The position numbers and the translations under genes were made by a program. A stretch of DNA of 39,322 nucleotides from a virus. How positions within the stretch are numbered: position 1 is the first letter of the stretch; every line of letters begins with the position of its first letter. Of this stretch, positions 7,880-14,800 are shown in pieces. A model generated the notes under the pieces. That model worked only from the letters and a program-made list of their open reading frames with translations, did not search any database and was not told where the DNA came from. The stretch is from positions 1 through 39,322 of IMG/VR virus record IMGVR_UViG_3300044961_000226. One strand, written 5' to 3'.

Positions 7880-7899
7880 ATGGTAGACTGTGCTACCAT
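7880..7899. repeat. Short inverted repeat (possible operator or weak terminator)
   Basis: ATGGTAG and CTACCAT form a perfect seven-base dyad with a six-base loop directly after the stop of the preceding gene and 41 bases before the ATG at 7940. There is no T-tract. A TTGCAA at 7871 lies 17 bases before TACCAT, so the dyad could also overlap a promoter. Confidence 0.4.
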
Positions 7900-7939
7900 C
7901 ACTTTGTTGACCCCACCACAACTAAAACGGAGTACGAAA

Positions 7940-8305
7940 ATGTCTGATGTTGTCCCTGATCTGACTCCCCCGACCAAAGTTGCGAAAGCCCCTAAGGAAC
8001 CGAAGGCTCCTAAGGAACCGAAGGCTCCCAAAGTTGTCGATCCGAACGCTCCCAAGAAGGAACGCGCCCCGCGTACTGATTACGGCTACGCGAAGGATGC
8101 CATTCTGGAAGTCAAGGTTGAGGCCGCGAGCAAATATCGCGGTGCTCGCAAGCGTTGGTTTGACAGCCTTGTCGAGAGCAACGGCAAGACTGTCGGTGAG
8201 TGGGAGGAGGGCCGGAAGGTAGCGGGTGAGAAGGATCCCCCGCGCGGCTGGCTCCGCTTCTACGTGCTGGAGGAAGAGACGGTCACCCTGAAGAAGGCTG
8301 GCTGA
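7940..8305 (+). CDS. Lys/Pro-rich small protein with YRGAR domain, 121 aa
   Basis: The first 45 residues are a basic Lys/Pro/Ala-rich tail with repeated KAPKEP units, encoded by an 18-base tandem repeat around 7985-8030. It resembles histone-like or nucleic-acid-binding tails. The globular part has KYRGARKRW at 65-73 and GWLRFYV at 103-109. The same two motifs in the same order occur in the gene at 35721-36020, so the two are paralogues. The ATG at 7940 has GGAG about eight bases upstream; an earlier in-frame start at 7880 has none. A strong hairpin follows the stop. DNA binding is inferred from composition only. Confidence 0.7.
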   Translation: MSDVVPDLTPPTKVAKAPKEPKAPKEPKAPKVVDPNAPKKERAPRTDYGYAKDAILEVKVEAASKYRGARKRWFDSLVESNGKTVGEWEEGRKVAGEKDPPRGWLRFYVLEEETVTLKKAG

Positions 8306-8312
8306 TAAACAA

Positions 8313-8341
8313 GAGACCCCCGGCTCACAACCGGGGGTCTC
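8313..8341 (+). terminator. Strong GC hairpin, probable terminator
   Basis: An 11-base perfect stem (GAGACCCCCGG / CCGGGGGTCTC) with a seven-base loop starts seven bases after the stop of the 7940-8305 gene. Only a loose T-rich tail follows. It separates the upstream unit from the DNA-modification cassette. Confidence 0.65.
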
Positions 8342-8371
8342 GTGTCTTCGAAATCGACTCGAGGATTATCT

Positions 8372-9223
8372 ATGATCTTAGCGATAATGACGCGAGGACG
8401 CGTTGGAAGGCAAGAAACTCTAAAGTGGATTCCCTCTAAGTGGCGTGATAAGACCGTGGTAGTATGCCCAGAGGAAGAGGAGAATGGGCATACACGATTT
8501 TTCCCATGGGTAGAAGAAGTGATGCCACCGAAACATTGGGGCATCAATAACTACAGCCGAAAGTTCCAAGCTCTATATGACGGTACCTTGTTGAGTGAAG
8601 AGGACAAGGTAGTCATCATGGATGATGATCTGTATTTCAACGAATACATTGACGGACGACTGTGCGTCATAAAAGACCCTGAACGAGTAGCTCCCATGTT
8701 TGACCTCATGGAAGCCATGCTGGACAAAATTCCTCTTGTAGGAGTTCACCCGAGGCTAATGGCTCAAAATGCGAAACCACCGTTTGAATGGAATTCTAAA
8801 ATCGTCACCATCCAAGGTATCAACCGATCCCTCTGTCCAAGAGGGCTTGTGCTTGATAAGCACCCTATCCTCGCTGACGTTCGACTTAATTGCGAGTTGC
8901 TCAGCCGTGGACTTCCAACTGCGAGAATCACCACCCATTTCGTTGACTGGCTCCCAAGTCAGTCAGCTGGAGGATGCGACTATAGAACTGCGGAAATGCA
9001 GAGACTTGCTTGCGAAGATATCGCAAGAGATTTCGCCCCTTTCGCAAGTGTCGTTACGAAAAAGCCGAAAACGGCGAAGTGGCTCGGTGACGAGAGAACC
9101 GATCTTAAAGTAAGATGGAAGGACCTCTACAATGCAAGCCCTAAGCGAATTGATGTACTGGATAAAGGAACGGGAAACGGTGCGGAGGAAGAAGGAGGCA
9201 GGACACCCGAAACCGTGGAGTAG
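8372..9223 (+). CDS. TET-associated-type glycosyltransferase (DNA base modification), 283 aa
   Basis: The N-terminus (ILAIMTRGRVGRQETLKW), the VCPEEEE strand end and IMDDDLYF with D84-D86 fit the GT-A-fold glycosyltransferases predicted to act on modified DNA bases in phages (the TET-associated glycosyltransferase type). The DDD serves as the DXD metal/nucleotide-sugar site. A likely role is adding a sugar to a hydroxymethylated base. No TET/JBP oxygenase is visible here; the next genes suggest hydroxymethyl-uracil as substrate. ATG 8372 has GAGG seven bases upstream; the longer GTG start lies in the hairpin. Its last 92 bases overlap the next gene. Confidence 0.75.
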   Translation: MILAIMTRGRVGRQETLKWIPSKWRDKTVVVCPEEEENGHTRFFPWVEEVMPPKHWGINNYSRKFQALYDGTLLSEEDKVVIMDDDLYFNEYIDGRLCVIKDPERVAPMFDLMEAMLDKIPLVGVHPRLMAQNAKPPFEWNSKIVTIQGINRSLCPRGLVLDKHPILADVRLNCELLSRGLPTARITTHFVDWLPSQSAGGCDYRTAEMQRLACEDIARDFAPFASVVTKKPKTAKWLGDERTDLKVRWKDLYNASPKRIDVLDKGTGNGAEEEGGRTPETVE

Positions 9224-9977
9224 CGATCCTGTATTCCACAACACGTACTTCTGCAACGTCCGACGGGAGGATGACAAAGTTACTCGTTTCATTCGTCAGT
9301 TCTACTCCCCTTACTTCAACGATCCGTACTTCATCTACAACATCGTATTCTCCCGATTCATCAATTGGCCTCCAACTCTCGAGAGGGTTGGATATTTGAC
9401 TTCGCATAAGCCACACGACATCATAGAAACACTGACTGAGATATCCAACTCAGGATCTAAAGTGTGGGGTGGAGCCTATATCATCACGACCCACGGCATA
9501 CCAATGGGTAAGGTACCCTACCTTGCGAATCTGGTTATGCGGCACGTCGACAAGGCGCTCGACGGCCTTAACCGCATGGCCCGCATGGGTACTATAGCCC
9601 CCACCGCGCGCGCGCTCGAGCTAATCGACGGCATTGGCACGTTTCTGTCTGGGCAGATAGTTGCAGACCTTAAGAACACTAAGGGATACCCCTTGGAGAA
9701 AGCTGAGGACTGGTGGACTTTCGTAACCCCCGGCCCAGGGAGCATGAGAGGACTGCATTGGGTGAAGTATAATCAGCCGGGAGAAATCTCGAAAGGCAGG
9801 TTTGAGAATGAATTCTCAATGCTGAGGGCTAACGTCAACCTAAACTGGGACAGCGATACAATGGGACCACCCATCTGTAATCAAGACCTCCAAAACTGTC
9901 TATGCGAGTTTGACAAGTATATGAGGGTTAAGAACGGAACGGGTAAGTCTAAAAGGAGCTACAATGGTTATCGTTAA
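9132..9977 (+). CDS. Thymine hypermodification protein: aGPT-pyrophosphorylase / 5-hmdU kinase helical family, 281 aa
   Basis: The signature FCNVRREDDKVTR at 40-52, FINWPPTLE at 76-84, the helix-hairpin-helix-like GIGTFLSGQIVADL at 167-180, and DWWTFVTPGPGS at 193-204 match the all-helical family that includes alpha-glutamyl/putrescinyl thymine pyrophosphorylases and the helical domain of 5-hydroxymethyl-dU DNA kinases. No Walker A is present, so it is not a complete kinase. In known pathways such enzymes replace an activated hydroxymethyl group on thymine with another group. A patch at about 9540-9640 is more GC-rich than its surroundings. ATG 9132 has GGAAGGA about nine bases upstream. Confidence 0.8.
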   Translation: MQALSELMYWIKERETVRRKKEAGHPKPWSSDPVFHNTYFCNVRREDDKVTRFIRQFYSPYFNDPYFIYNIVFSRFINWPPTLERVGYLTSHKPHDIIETLTEISNSGSKVWGGAYIITTHGIPMGKVPYLANLVMRHVDKALDGLNRMARMGTIAPTARALELIDGIGTFLSGQIVADLKNTKGYPLEKAEDWWTFVTPGPGSMRGLHWVKYNQPGEISKGRFENEFSMLRANVNLNWDSDTMGPPICNQDLQNCLCEFDKYMRVKNGTGKSKRSYNGYR

Positions 9978-10914
9978 TGCACGAAATGTTCCCGAAGCCT
10001 ACCGGGAAGTATTGTGGGCGATGAAAGTGCATGGTAAGAATGAAGACTCCAGGAACGGCCCTGTACTGACAATCCAAGAACCGTTCTGTCTTACAATTGA
10101 GCGTCCGTGGGAGAGGGTGCTACTGGATCCTGTCCGACAGGCGAACCCATACTTCCATGTGATGGAATTTGTGTGGATGATGTCTGGTAGTAATGATGCT
10201 CAGTGGCTGGCACGATACAACAAGAGGATGATGTCGTACACAGATGACAATGCTACCCTCAACGGAGCCTACGGGCATAGATGGCGCAAGCATTTCGCTG
10301 TAGATCAAATTGTGTGGGTCATCGAGAAACTGCGTGCTGACCCTACGACCCGCCGCGCCGTAATCGCTATGTACGACCCTGACACAGACACTGGCGACAG
10401 CCTTGACATCCCCTGCAACACCCACATCTATTTCCGGATAGTCAATGGTTCTCTAAACATGACAGTCTGCAACCGCAGCAATGATGTCATCTGGGGGATG
10501 TTGGGAGCGAACGCTGTTCACATGACTTTCCTCCATGAATTTATATCACGCGCGGTTAAGGTCAAGCAAGGGGATTACATCGTAATGACTAACAATGCTC
10601 ATATCTATCACGATGTTCCCAATTTTGATCAAGTGGATTGCCCGCCAGACATTGTAGACTACCATTACGAAACTGTGATTAAACCTTTACTCAATCCTTG
10701 GGAGACCTACCAGAGTTTCTTGCGTGACGCAGAAAGGTTTGTTGAATTTTCGTCAGTGGAAACTGAATGGTTCAAAACTGTGGCGCTTCCGATGAAAATG
10801 GCTTATCAAGCCCGACTTGAGAAAGACAGGGTGTACGAAGACAGGATGTTAGCTCTAGTAAAGTCACTCGACTGGAAAGAAGCCTGTGTTCAGTGGAGGA
10901 AGTGGCGTGAGTAA
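9964..10914 (+). CDS. Thymidylate synthase homologue, probable dUMP hydroxymethylase, 316 aa
   Basis: Thymidylate synthase fold. Visible residues include the catalytic C151 in DIPCNTH, E68 in the MEFVW segment, R130-R131, GAYGHRW at 101-107, N183 (the residue that selects dUMP over dCMP) and AHIY at 212-215. Two features point away from ordinary ThyA: the tryptophan-bearing WDEW segment is replaced by SYTDD, and the usual hydrophobic C-terminus that closes the active site is absent. With its neighbours, making 5-hydroxymethyl-dUMP is the favoured role; plain dTMP synthesis is the alternative. It has a strong AAAGGAG, overlaps the upstream gene by 14 bases and the next by eight. Confidence 0.85.
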   Translation: MVIVNARNVPEAYREVLWAMKVHGKNEDSRNGPVLTIQEPFCLTIERPWERVLLDPVRQANPYFHVMEFVWMMSGSNDAQWLARYNKRMMSYTDDNATLNGAYGHRWRKHFAVDQIVWVIEKLRADPTTRRAVIAMYDPDTDTGDSLDIPCNTHIYFRIVNGSLNMTVCNRSNDVIWGMLGANAVHMTFLHEFISRAVKVKQGDYIVMTNNAHIYHDVPNFDQVDCPPDIVDYHYETVIKPLLNPWETYQSFLRDAERFVEFSSVETEWFKTVALPMKMAYQARLEKDRVYEDRMLALVKSLDWKEACVQWRKWRE

Positions 10915-11347
10915 GAAGATTATAATTTGTGATCTAGATGGTACTCTAGCTGATGGCTCACATCGCGAATATCTTATAAAGAATCATCCACGAAATTGGG
11001 ATCTGTACTTCGACCTGTGTCATCTAGATGTACCTAACTGGAACATGGTGGAGATACTAGAGCGTATCGCGAGCGCCTACAAGATTGTCATTATTACGGG
11101 GAGGATTGAACGTATCCGAACCAAGACAACGAATTGGCTCGATGAATTTGACATACCTTACCACGAGTTGATCATGCGTCCCACAGATGACCGCACTGAC
11201 GATCACATACTCAAGGTTCGTCAAGCTATCAATCATGGCTACCACCCAGAACGAGTGATTGCAGTATTTGAAGACCGTAATCGTGTAGTCAAGTCTTGGA
11301 GGGATGCAGGGTATCTGTGTTTCCAAGTGCGCGAAGGAGATTTCTGA
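10907..11347 (+). CDS. HAD-family phosphatase, polynucleotide-kinase-phosphatase-like, 146 aa
   Basis: The HAD core is complete: motif I CDLDGT with D9 and D11, motif II IITGR near 62-66 and an acidic motif FEDR with D123. The single-domain form with TGRIERIR and EDR resembles the phosphatase half of T4-type polynucleotide kinase and related nucleotide phosphatases. In this cassette it could act on a nucleotide or DNA-end phosphate. The GTG at 10907 lies six bases after GGAGGA and overlaps the previous stop; a longer start at 10886 has no such site. Confident on fold, not on substrate. Confidence 0.8.
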   Translation: MSKKIIICDLDGTLADGSHREYLIKNHPRNWDLYFDLCHLDVPNWNMVEILERIASAYKIVIITGRIERIRTKTTNWLDEFDIPYHELIMRPTDDRTDDHILKVRQAINHGYHPERVIAVFEDRNRVVKSWRDAGYLCFQVREGDF

Positions 11348-11718
11348 TGGACGATTACTTCAGGAAACGAAACGAAAAAATAGCTGTTGCATCACAAAAA
11401 GCAGAGGCGCACACTGTACGCATGGCAGGTGACAGCAACAAGCGACAAGTCGGTGGTAGTCACTACAAAACTGGAGGCATTGAACACTGGGACGTAGTTC
11501 ACCTCTTTGAGCTGGACTACTTCCAAGGGCAGATCACCAAGTACCTGTTCCGCTGGAGGAAAAAGAATGGTATTCAAGACCTTGAGAAAGCAAGGCACTT
11601 TCTGGACAAGTACATTGAGTTGGCGCGACAAGATGAGGCAGCTTCCGGAGCAGAAGCATTACCAAGAGGTTATGTTGACCAAGATCAGGGAGATTCAAAT
11701 GCGGCTAGGCCCAAATAG
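11347..11718 (+). CDS. DUF3310 protein, 123 aa
   Basis: The block QVGGSHYK, then IEHWDVV, then FQGQITKYLFRWRKKNG, then LEKARHFLDKYI is the DUF3310 pattern found widely in phages, often described as SaV-like nucleotide-kinase-associated protein. Its function is unproven. The ATG overlaps the preceding stop (TGATG) and AAGGAG is seven bases upstream; a longer start at 11296 is unsupported. It is the last gene of the modification cassette and is followed directly by a hairpin. Confidence 0.8.
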   Translation: MDDYFRKRNEKIAVASQKAEAHTVRMAGDSNKRQVGGSHYKTGGIEHWDVVHLFELDYFQGQITKYLFRWRKKNGIQDLEKARHFLDKYIELARQDEAASGAEALPRGYVDQDQGDSNAARPK

Positions 11719-11737
11719 TATTCGCGCAGTGCGAATA
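11719..11737 (+). terminator. Hairpin at end of modification cassette
   Basis: TATTCGC and GCGAATA form a perfect seven-base stem with a five-base loop starting at the base after the stop codon. There is no T-tract, so termination would be weak or factor-dependent. The rest of 11738-11925 holds no gene. It has a TTGACA at 11773 but no matching -10, and a GGAAGGAG before the next ATG. Confidence 0.45.
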
Positions 11738-13702: not shown

Positions 13703-13743
13703 TGACGCCATGAGCACCGCTTGACGACATCGAGGATGCGCGC
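13703..13743 (+). pseudogene. Fused remnant of the 12887-13132 gene
   Basis: Bases 13703-13715 repeat the start region of the 12887 gene (TGACGCCATGAGC), and 13721-13743 repeat 13089-13111 near its end with one mismatch in 23. The middle is missing and no useful frame remains. This looks like a duplicated copy collapsed by an internal deletion. Confidence 0.55.
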
Positions 13744-13762
13744 AGATATCTTAGGGAAAACG

Positions 13763-14266
13763 ATGAGATTACTCAAGAATACAAAAACTACGACTAAGCT
13801 GGTGATTTTCTTCCTCATCCTCTGTGTAGGAGCATGGGCCACCACCTGCTCGGCTGAGGGTAGGACATTCACTAGTTTCGGCGGAGGCACCACTGTAAAC
13901 AGAGGGAAAACTGAAATCCTTGAGTTCGCTCATACGTGGCCTGTAGCTAATATGAAAGATCCTCAGTGGCGTATAGCAATGACGCTTATTGGATCTTCTA
14001 ACGATCCGCGATATCAACTAGATTCCCCGAATAATTTCTGCGCCTCGGGGCAATACATCGATGGATTTAAAAGAGCCAAACTGGGCCTCGGCTTAGTCGC
14101 ATGTCAGAACACTGATGTTTACATCAGCTCGCACGCTGGATTCTACATTTCAGCAGACTTTGAATTTAAGAGTTTTTACATCCGGTACGGCCATATCTCC
14201 AACGCAGGAACTCGTACGCCAAACTCAGGTCGTGATTTCGTAATGTTACTGTGGAAATTCTACTGA
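13763..14266 (+). CDS. PagL-like lipid A 3-O-deacylase, secreted, 167 aa
   Basis: The first 33 residues are a basic start, a hydrophobic segment (LVIFFLILCVGAWA) and a likely signal-peptidase site near CSAEG. The C-terminus has FYIRYGHISNAGT, then PNSG, then F, ending in an aromatic residue as outer-membrane barrels do. This matches PagL, an outer-membrane enzyme that removes the 3-O acyl chain of lipid A. The catalytic H and S are present (H144, S146), and D158 lies exactly 12 after the Ser, where PagL has Glu. It may remodel host LPS. ATG 13763 has AGGGAAA upstream. Identification is from motif and topology only. Confidence 0.7.
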   Translation: MRLLKNTKTTTKLVIFFLILCVGAWATTCSAEGRTFTSFGGGTTVNRGKTEILEFAHTWPVANMKDPQWRIAMTLIGSSNDPRYQLDSPNNFCASGQYIDGFKRAKLGLGLVACQNTDVYISSHAGFYISADFEFKSFYIRYGHISNAGTRTPNSGRDFVMLLWKFY

Positions 14267-14370
14267 TGAAACGGAAGTATAGCTTCGTGGATGAATTGGT
14301 AATTCACATTTGCATCTGGCTGTTCATTTGGGCTATAATGACCTATGCAAACCTTTCTGCCCATAGCTGA
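14266..14370 (+). CDS. Possible small membrane protein, 34 aa
   Basis: The ATG overlaps the stop of the PagL-like gene (TGATG). The frame encodes one hydrophobic helix (VIHICIWLFIWAIMTYA) after a charged N-terminus, and ends 26 bases inside the next gene. The coupling to a secreted protein and the clear transmembrane segment favour a real gene, but it is very short. Confidence 0.4.
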   Translation: MKRKYSFVDELVIHICIWLFIWAIMTYANLSAHS

Positions 14371-14800
14371 CTTTGTAGAATCAGCAAAAGTTTTAGACTA
14401 CAAACGACTTGGGAAACAACGTCTTGAGTGTAAGCAGATTCTACAAGCGATTTACTTCAATGGCGGATGGGCTAGTCACCCAGCTACGAAAATGTGGCGA
14501 GGGTATGAGAGAGCTTTGGGAGAGTACTGGCTCACGATGTGTAGAGAATGGGCAGCTCGCGGCTACACTGACAACATGTCATCACAAGCAGGACGATTCC
14601 TGGCATCAATGCAATCGGTGCCTCTTGTCCTTCCCCACTGGTTCGGCTGCGAAAGATTCCACGCCTCGCATCGCTCCAACCTCCTCCGTAAAAATCCTAC
14701 TCACTACGAGAAATTCGGTTGGAGTGAGGGTCCTCACTTGCCGTATGTGTGGCCTGACCGTAGTTACGTACCATTGACCCGTAAAATCAGCCCCGTATAA
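14345..14800 (+). CDS. Pyrimidine-dimer DNA glycosylase / endonuclease V-like, 151 aa
   Basis: The N-terminal MQTFLP, then LD--RLGKQRLE, then HPATKMWRGYE, then EWAARGY is the pattern of the MSMEG_6728/T4 endonuclease V-like family (Pyr_excise). T4 endonuclease V starts DNA repair by cutting the glycosidic bond of UV dimers, using its N-terminal amine. A phage role in UV repair, or in cutting unmodified host DNA, is possible. It is the last plus-strand gene before the convergent late operon. The start is the ATG at 14345; the N-terminal homology begins there. Confidence 0.8.
   Translation: MQTFLPIADFVESAKVLDYKRLGKQRLECKQILQAIYFNGGWASHPATKMWRGYERALGEYWLTMCREWAARGYTDNMSSQAGRFLASMQSVPLVLPHWFGCERFHASHRSNLLRKNPTHYEKFGWSEGPHLPYVWPDRSYVPLTRKISPV

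Follow-up and report, generated by a model that had tools for sequence, protein, structure and literature searches.

We describe a cassette of five overlapping genes in a viral DNA of 39,322 bases, IMG/VR record IMGVR_UViG_3300044961_000226 (the window), which on sequence and structural models probably makes a glycosylated 5-hydroxymethyluracil (hmU), a thymine resembling base J that would replace some of the thymine in the phage DNA. The cassette encodes a glycosyltransferase (GT), a helical protein of family PF18723 (HMUDK_hel, hereafter HEL), a thymidylate synthase (TS) homologue, a HAD phosphatase, and a DUF3310 protein (Table 1). The computed gene content, folds, and active-site residues, together with the mutual exclusivity and swapping of the slot enzymes that accompany HEL, suggest that a single helper protein, HEL, takes part in two alternative kinds of chemistry, one adding sugar and the other phosphate, which were never seen mixed. 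An earlier reading of the window (the original prediction) had HEL act as a pyrophosphorylase-type enzyme alongside the GT, with the kinase missing.

Glycosyltransferase and DNA kinase are alternatives in HEL loci

HEL loci were collected in two scans of viral contigs, their genes were annotated with hidden Markov models (HMMs) built from reference genes, and dereplication at 80% identity left 109 loci. A GT resembling the TET-associated glycosyltransferases (TAGT) was found in 53 of these and a P-loop DNA kinase in 30, none had both, and 26 had neither (Fisher p 1e-11); dereplication at 60% identity gave 41, 22, 0, and 22, respectively (p 2e-8). Such p-values overstate the evidence because the sequences are related, and this relatedness is addressed by a HEL tree, on which GT and kinase states change at least 12 times, so that their exclusivity does not reflect one ancient split. 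A natural swap is provided by loci L106, with a GT and a radical SAM protein, and L112, with a kinase, which are 76% identical in nucleotide sequence across 2.6 kb from the HEL start and whose HEL proteins are 78% identical. The gene directly upstream of HEL is a GT in 38 and a kinase in 17 of the 109 loci, these enzymes otherwise lying elsewhere within the locus. Where the slot gene adjoins HEL, the two genes usually share between a few and about 200 bases (92 bp in the window), figures that are upper bounds since open reading frame (ORF) starts were taken as the longest possible, and the overlap is seen across several enzyme families.

Among the 26 loci without TAGT-like GT or kinase, 20 encode a GT4-like protein of GT-B type (family Y) or a protein of family X, and 6 encode neither. 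Family X, to which Pfam, PHROGs, and a comparison with the GT-B proteins gave no name, comprises proteins of about 300-380 amino acids (aa) encoded inside or close to the HEL slot, with conserved DYT, NWN, and RFYE motifs. Two loci, L063 and L065, have two HEL genes per cassette and no recognised slot enzyme.

The accompanying genes follow the same division. Of the 30 kinase loci, 11 encode ADDT (PF18724), which is absent from the 79 other HEL loci; sulfotransferase-like proteins (family Z, seven loci) and a SPASM radical-SAM family (family W) are confined to sugar-type loci, and a sulfated sugar on DNA is possible, judging from gene content, in loci with the sulfotransferase-like protein. In locus L059, a UDP-glucose dehydrogenase and an epimerase are encoded between HEL and the GT.

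Searches of whole records gave the same picture. Kinase profile A7 matched none of 37 GT-branch records while detecting 7 of 8 kinase-branch positive controls, and a GT was found in none of 16 kinase-branch records, with 6 of 6 GT positive controls detected; in L055, called a kinase locus by HMM, the whole-record kinase search did not confirm the call. An initial search with kinase family PF18748 yielded no match in the window or the GT-branch records, but detected no positive control either and was redone with profile A7. The second kinase family, PF18751, which adjoins HEL in Microbacterium phage Lucky3, was absent from the window and the GT-branch records searched, and ADDT had no match in the window record or the GT loci, its kinase-branch controls being detected. 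The Walker A pattern GxxxxGK[ST] matched four times in the window, in a VapE-like primase/helicase (found twice, at the nearly identical ends of the contig), a 35-codon frame, and a 324-codon minus-strand frame, which bears out the earlier observation that no kinase-like gene with this motif is present. These absences gain weight because the genome is probably complete at about 39.04 kb: contig ends 1-285 and 39038-39322 overlap with 276 of 285 bases identical, and their junction is spanned by a 681-codon open frame that is VapE-like over the scanned part. Most likely, going by this gene content, no kinase is missing from the cassette. In many records the P-loop DNA kinase is labelled 'terminase small subunit', a name borne by phrog_800, as in L216 5432-6001 (PaMx11 gp49) and L221 6387-6950 (M6 gp054).

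These results do not sustain the pairing originally proposed, in which a host or novel kinase would phosphorylate hmU in DNA, HEL would act on the product as a pyrophosphorylase, and the GT would work in parallel. The historical name of PF18723 (aGPT-PPlase clade 1) and the known HmPPUra intermediate of phage phiW-14 (PMC5977210) speak for such a scheme, which we nevertheless regard as highly improbable given that PF18748, PF18751, and A7 kinases are lacking from the window and from every GT-branch record searched (0 of 37 with profile A7), that none of the 53 loci with HEL and GT has the P-loop kinase, that ADDT is confined to loci without a GT, and that HEL has the DNA-glycosylase fold described below. 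Assignment of PF18723 to aGPT-PPlase2 was also considered and rejected; PF18723 is identified as aGPT-PPlase1, and ADDT as aGPT-PPlase2, by the gene order of SN1 (PMC9476957) and by how phage Montesquieu is annotated.

HEL resembles DNA glycosylases and an amino-acid:DNA transferase

The profile search confirmed HEL as a member of PF18723 (121 bits against a cut-off of 25), with the match covering positions 3-277 of 281, and the predicted FCNVRREDD signature was found at residue 40. Its AlphaFold2 (AF2) model (mean predicted local distance difference test score, pLDDT, 95) has an all-helical helix-hairpin-helix (HhH) fold without a Walker A motif. By its name, PF18723 should come with a P-loop kinase domain attached or with a partner kinase, and neither was found for the window HEL; its sequence and model indicate that HEL is not a P-loop kinase, the Pfam name notwithstanding.

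The closest structural match of the model is PaMx11 gp46 (8z2n, Z 11.5), the 5-phosphomethyl-dU (5-PmdU) glycinyltransferase and a proven amino-acid:DNA transferase. It is followed by HhH DNA glycosylases (MjOgg, Z 9.9, and several more at Z 9.7-9.9), placing HEL in the HhH-GPD fold; the queuine salvage protein family also reaches Z 9-10. Since the fold is mostly helical, we give Z values near 10 moderate weight, to which the DNA-acting proteins at the head of the list add. A profile search places gp46 in PF18724 ADDT, and this, with the structural match, suggests that HEL and ADDT are probably paralogues; the comparison of the two profiles is weak (E 5e-4). By sequence, HEL had no match among solved structures even with a 55-row profile, and fold comparison alone succeeded.

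Residues R14, D32, R45, D48, D193, C258, and E259 of HEL are invariant. At least 90% conservation in both the GT and the kinase branch was found at 27 positions, and no position tells the branches apart. Retention of the same residues argues that HEL acts on a substrate shared by both branches, hydroxymethyl-base DNA, as a branch-specific intermediate would predict differences. Together with a fold of glycosylase type, this speaks for HEL as a base-engaging, probably everting, partner of the accompanying transferase, the role that we consider most likely from sequence and model. We know of no reaction step in the kinase branch that has been assigned to PF18723. Alternatively, HEL might be a catalytic transferase like its paralogue ADDT and work after the slot enzyme, so that the final base would carry a sugar plus another group. 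This is in keeping with the match to the 5-PmdU glycinyltransferase, the weak profile homology to ADDT, and the seven invariant residues, and yet it is unlikely, since it would be surprising for an enzyme with two different intermediates as substrates to keep identical residues beside a kinase and beside a GT, and a separate ADDT is encoded wherever an amino-acid transferase is recognised in a kinase locus.

The glycosyltransferase is probably of a DNA-acting type

The GT frame can be read from a GTG at 8342 as well; homologues of the protein begin at the position of ATG 8372 instead, and numbered from there D84-D85-D86 is as predicted, forming the sole motif invariant across 26 diverse homologues. 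The protein matches phrog_842 (beta-glucosyl-HMC-alpha-glucosyltransferase), and its AF2 model (pLDDT 89) shows a GT-A fold by structure comparison, its named neighbours among the predicted viral structures of BFVD being mainly TAGT proteins (TM 0.67-0.74) and PKO111 beta-glucosyl-HMC-alpha-GT. With its GT-A fold, DxD-type motif, and TAGT neighbours, the assignment to a DNA-type glycosyltransferase with a predicted DNA-base acceptor is supported by sequence and model, as the original prediction had it, except that the protein falls short of the Pfam TAGT threshold (see below). No second GT was found in the window.

Scans with the single window GT or the GT of MW202897 returned no viral loci. 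The 26-row alignment was too diverse to serve as an anchor, and a search with a closer alignment found 75 new GT loci, with HEL in 69 and TS in 71. The presence of TS beside the GT in these loci, and of TAGT proteins as the closest predicted viral structures, leaves very little room for a GT that sits in the cassette by chance and modifies a non-DNA acceptor such as host envelope or protein, even if acceptors of many other kinds are used across the GT-A superfamily at large.

The nucleotide step

The predicted C151 and N183 of the TS homologue were found in place, as was N152. In E. coli numbering, it has C146, N147 (replacing H147), N177, and no W80, the residue pattern of dUMP 5-hydroxymethylases, and the set is identical in the 5-hydroxymethyl-dU (hmdU) synthase (dUMP hydroxymethylase) gp17 of YuA, a close relative of M6. 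According to mutagenesis cited in PMC8670742, N177 selects uracil and D177 cytosine. N177 is present in 96 of 98 HEL-locus TS homologues readable at that residue, and among those aligned from dereplicated loci, the full set is present in all but three (one truncated at 177, two with D177). The likely product, judging from these residues, is hydroxymethyl-dUMP, in agreement with the proposal that hmU arises at the nucleotide level. Two candidates were rejected: ordinary ThyA, for want of His147 and Trp80, and hydroxymethylcytosine as the base, given N183 where the cytosine type has D. Loci L059, L061, and L062 have HEL and TAGT beside a cytosine-type (D177) hydroxymethylase.

The phosphatase has its HAD motif, DLDGT, at residue 16. 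Among the 109 HEL loci, 11 have a HAD protein and 48 an HD (YfbR-like) nucleotidase, and none has both; from this pattern the HAD phosphatase appears to replace the HD nucleotidase of relatives, which fits a role in the nucleotide pool. The same exchange led us to reject a function as the DNA 3'-phosphatase that works alongside a polynucleotide kinase. PF11753 also matches T7 gp1.7 (4e-23), annotated as a nucleotide kinase, and by analogy, a role of DUF3310 in phosphorylating hydroxymethyl-dUMP is possible.

Layout of the cassette and other features

The five overlapping plus-strand ORFs were confirmed and lie where the original prediction had placed them. The DUF3310 gene likelier starts at ATG 11344, which overlaps the HAD stop codon, than at 11296. 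Both hairpins said to bound the cassette are present; the upstream one has its T-rich tail on the minus strand and is terminator-like for that strand only, and the downstream one is weak. Just 5' of the cassette, 7880-8305 encodes a small lysine/proline-rich protein with a repeated APKEPKAPKEPKAPK. Further downstream are a gene with a PagL lipid A deacylase match at the C-terminus (13721-14266; PF09411, 1e-5) and one for a pyrimidine dimer DNA glycosylase (14345-14800; PF03013, 2e-21), a further gene of DNA-glycosylase type in this phage.

Table 1. Features of the window cassette and of related HEL loci
Feature	Record	Position	Strand	Support
G+C-rich hairpin immediately 5' of cassette	window	8313-8341		-26.4 kcal/mol, z -4.8
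GT-A glycosyltransferase, TAGT-like, 283 aa, DDD 84-86	window	8372-9223	+	phrog_842 1e-22; GT-A AF2 model
HEL, PF18723 HMUDK_hel (aGPT-PPlase1), 281 aa	window	9132-9977	+	PF18723 8e-35; AF2 model
TS homologue, predicted dUMP 5-hydroxymethylase	window	9964-10914	+	PF00303 1e-24; phrog_5131 3e-92
HAD phosphatase, PNKP phosphatase domain only, predicted nucleotidase	window	10886-11347	+	PF25109 1e-26
DUF3310 protein	window	11296-11718	+	PF11753 2e-9
Weak hairpin 3' of cassette	window	11719-11737		-7.6 kcal/mol
Sulfotransferase-like (family Z), sugar-branch HEL cassette	L033	6828-7610
Sulfotransferase-like (family Z)	L047	2402-3022
Sulfotransferase-like (family Z)	L048	8016-8723
Sulfotransferase-like (family Z)	L050	7927-8559
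Sulfotransferase-like (family Z)	L054	5721-6482
Sulfotransferase-like (family Z)	L069	9321-9989
Sulfotransferase-like (family Z)	L072	7503-8276
Family X (examples, among others)	L036	4847-5986
Family X	L105	5030-5986
Family X	L125	4594-5502

Discussion

We infer the following reactions, and with them the role of HEL and the identity of the sugar. The TS homologue would form 5-hydroxymethyl-dUMP, and the HAD phosphatase, perhaps with DUF3310 and host kinases, would tune the nucleotide pool to allow incorporation of hmdUTP. HEL, with its DNA-glycosylase fold, would then recognise and probably evert hmU in duplex DNA, and the adjoining TAGT-like GT would transfer to it a sugar supplied by a nucleotide-sugar of the host. 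Where other phages have a P-loop DNA kinase in the same slot, that enzyme would initiate amino-acid hypermodification instead.

The thymidine hypermodification loci of Pseudomonas phages M6/YuA and PaMx11 share with the window the core order of slot enzyme, PF18723, dUMP hydroxymethylase, nucleotidase, and DUF3310-type gene; their slot is occupied by a P-loop hmdU-DNA kinase, and they add ADDT and tailoring enzymes, whereas the window has a GT and none of these. Contrary to the impression that the gene set was without a described equal, it is a variant of phage thymine hypermodification that is common in environmental phages and also present in the cultured Brevibacterium phage LuckyBarnes, where gp38-gp41 include TS, TAGT, and PF18723, and where DNA kinase and ADDT were not found in the record. 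LuckyBarnes differs from the window in having two TAGT copies and another gene order, and its proteins are annotated as glycosyltransferases and a hypothetical protein. Published chemistry for a gene set of the window type was not found in the literature available. Base J of kinetoplastids is, like the predicted product, a glycosylated hmU in DNA; there, JBP1/2 oxidise thymine in DNA and glucosylation follows, whereas in the window phage hydroxymethylation is predicted at the nucleotide stage. The DNA of Bacillus phage SP-15 also carries a sugar on a modified uracil (PMC5977210), although on a dihydroxypentyl side chain and attributed to a gene cluster unlike that of the window.

The TAGT (PF20691) of T2/T6 has in common with the window GT the GT-A fold, phrog_842, and a DNA-base acceptor, predicted in the case of the window. 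T6 TAGT transfers sugar onto already glucosylated hydroxymethylcytosine (PMC13216743); unlike in that setting, the window GT has a dUMP-type synthase as partner, lies adjacent to HEL, and stands without another GT. For T4 beta-GT, an unrelated enzyme of the GT-B type, hmU in duplex DNA is a substrate for glucosylation only if it is mispaired with G (PMC4111573). By analogy with these two enzymes, a TAGT-type GT acting on hmU:A pairs might need the help of HEL.

Several observations weigh against the overall reading of the cassette given above. The counts over HEL loci come from related sequences. The window GT matches PF20691 weakly (E 0.012, 15.9 bits, below the cut-off of 27.5), a cut-off passed by its homologues of L061 (44 bits) and LuckyBarnes (55 bits). 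In two dereplicated HEL lineages the enzyme is of the dCMP type (D177), so the tie of HEL to hmU is not a strict one, and HEL may itself be catalytic, given its invariant charged residues. A measured base for any sugar-branch phage was not found in the literature available. Finally, the circular genome MW202897 (L075), whose order of polymerase, helicase, GT, hydroxymethylase, HD, and DUF3310 is similar to that of the window, has a GT and a hydroxymethylase, and HEL was found nowhere in it; HEL may thus not be essential. This genome, the base-excision-glycosylase-like fold of HEL, and the cleavage of unmodified 5hmdU phage DNA by hSMUG1 and endonuclease VIII (PMC6449724) would suit a GT that works independently, with HEL separately protecting hmU-DNA against DNA glycosylases of the host or signalling the modification state. 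We judge such a division of labour improbable, in view of the tight overlap of slot enzyme and HEL genes across several enzyme families and the presence of HEL in 69 of the 75 GT-anchored loci.

Returning to HEL as a base-engaging partner, we propose, tentatively and at somewhat less than even confidence, that PF18723 proteins act as a general adaptor, capturing hydroxymethylated pyrimidines of duplex DNA and offering them to interchangeable transferases (P-loop kinase, GT-A, GT-B, or family X), that a one-gene swap would switch between amino-acid-type and sugar-type hypermodification, and that the sugar branch, including the window phage, would make a thymine that is glycosylated and, in certain phages, perhaps also sulfated. 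To our knowledge, such a thymine would be a class of phage DNA base without prior measurement. In a 2026 study, solitary TAGT-type GTs in 288 of 753 phage genomes were flagged as potentially novel transferases (PMC13216743). The adaptor proposal gives both orphans, PF18723 and these solitary GTs, a testable role. If true, a base-J-like, sugar-modified thymine would be widespread in environmental phages, would be relevant to phage resistance against restriction and DNA-glycosylase defences, and might offer a source of hmU-labelling enzymes.

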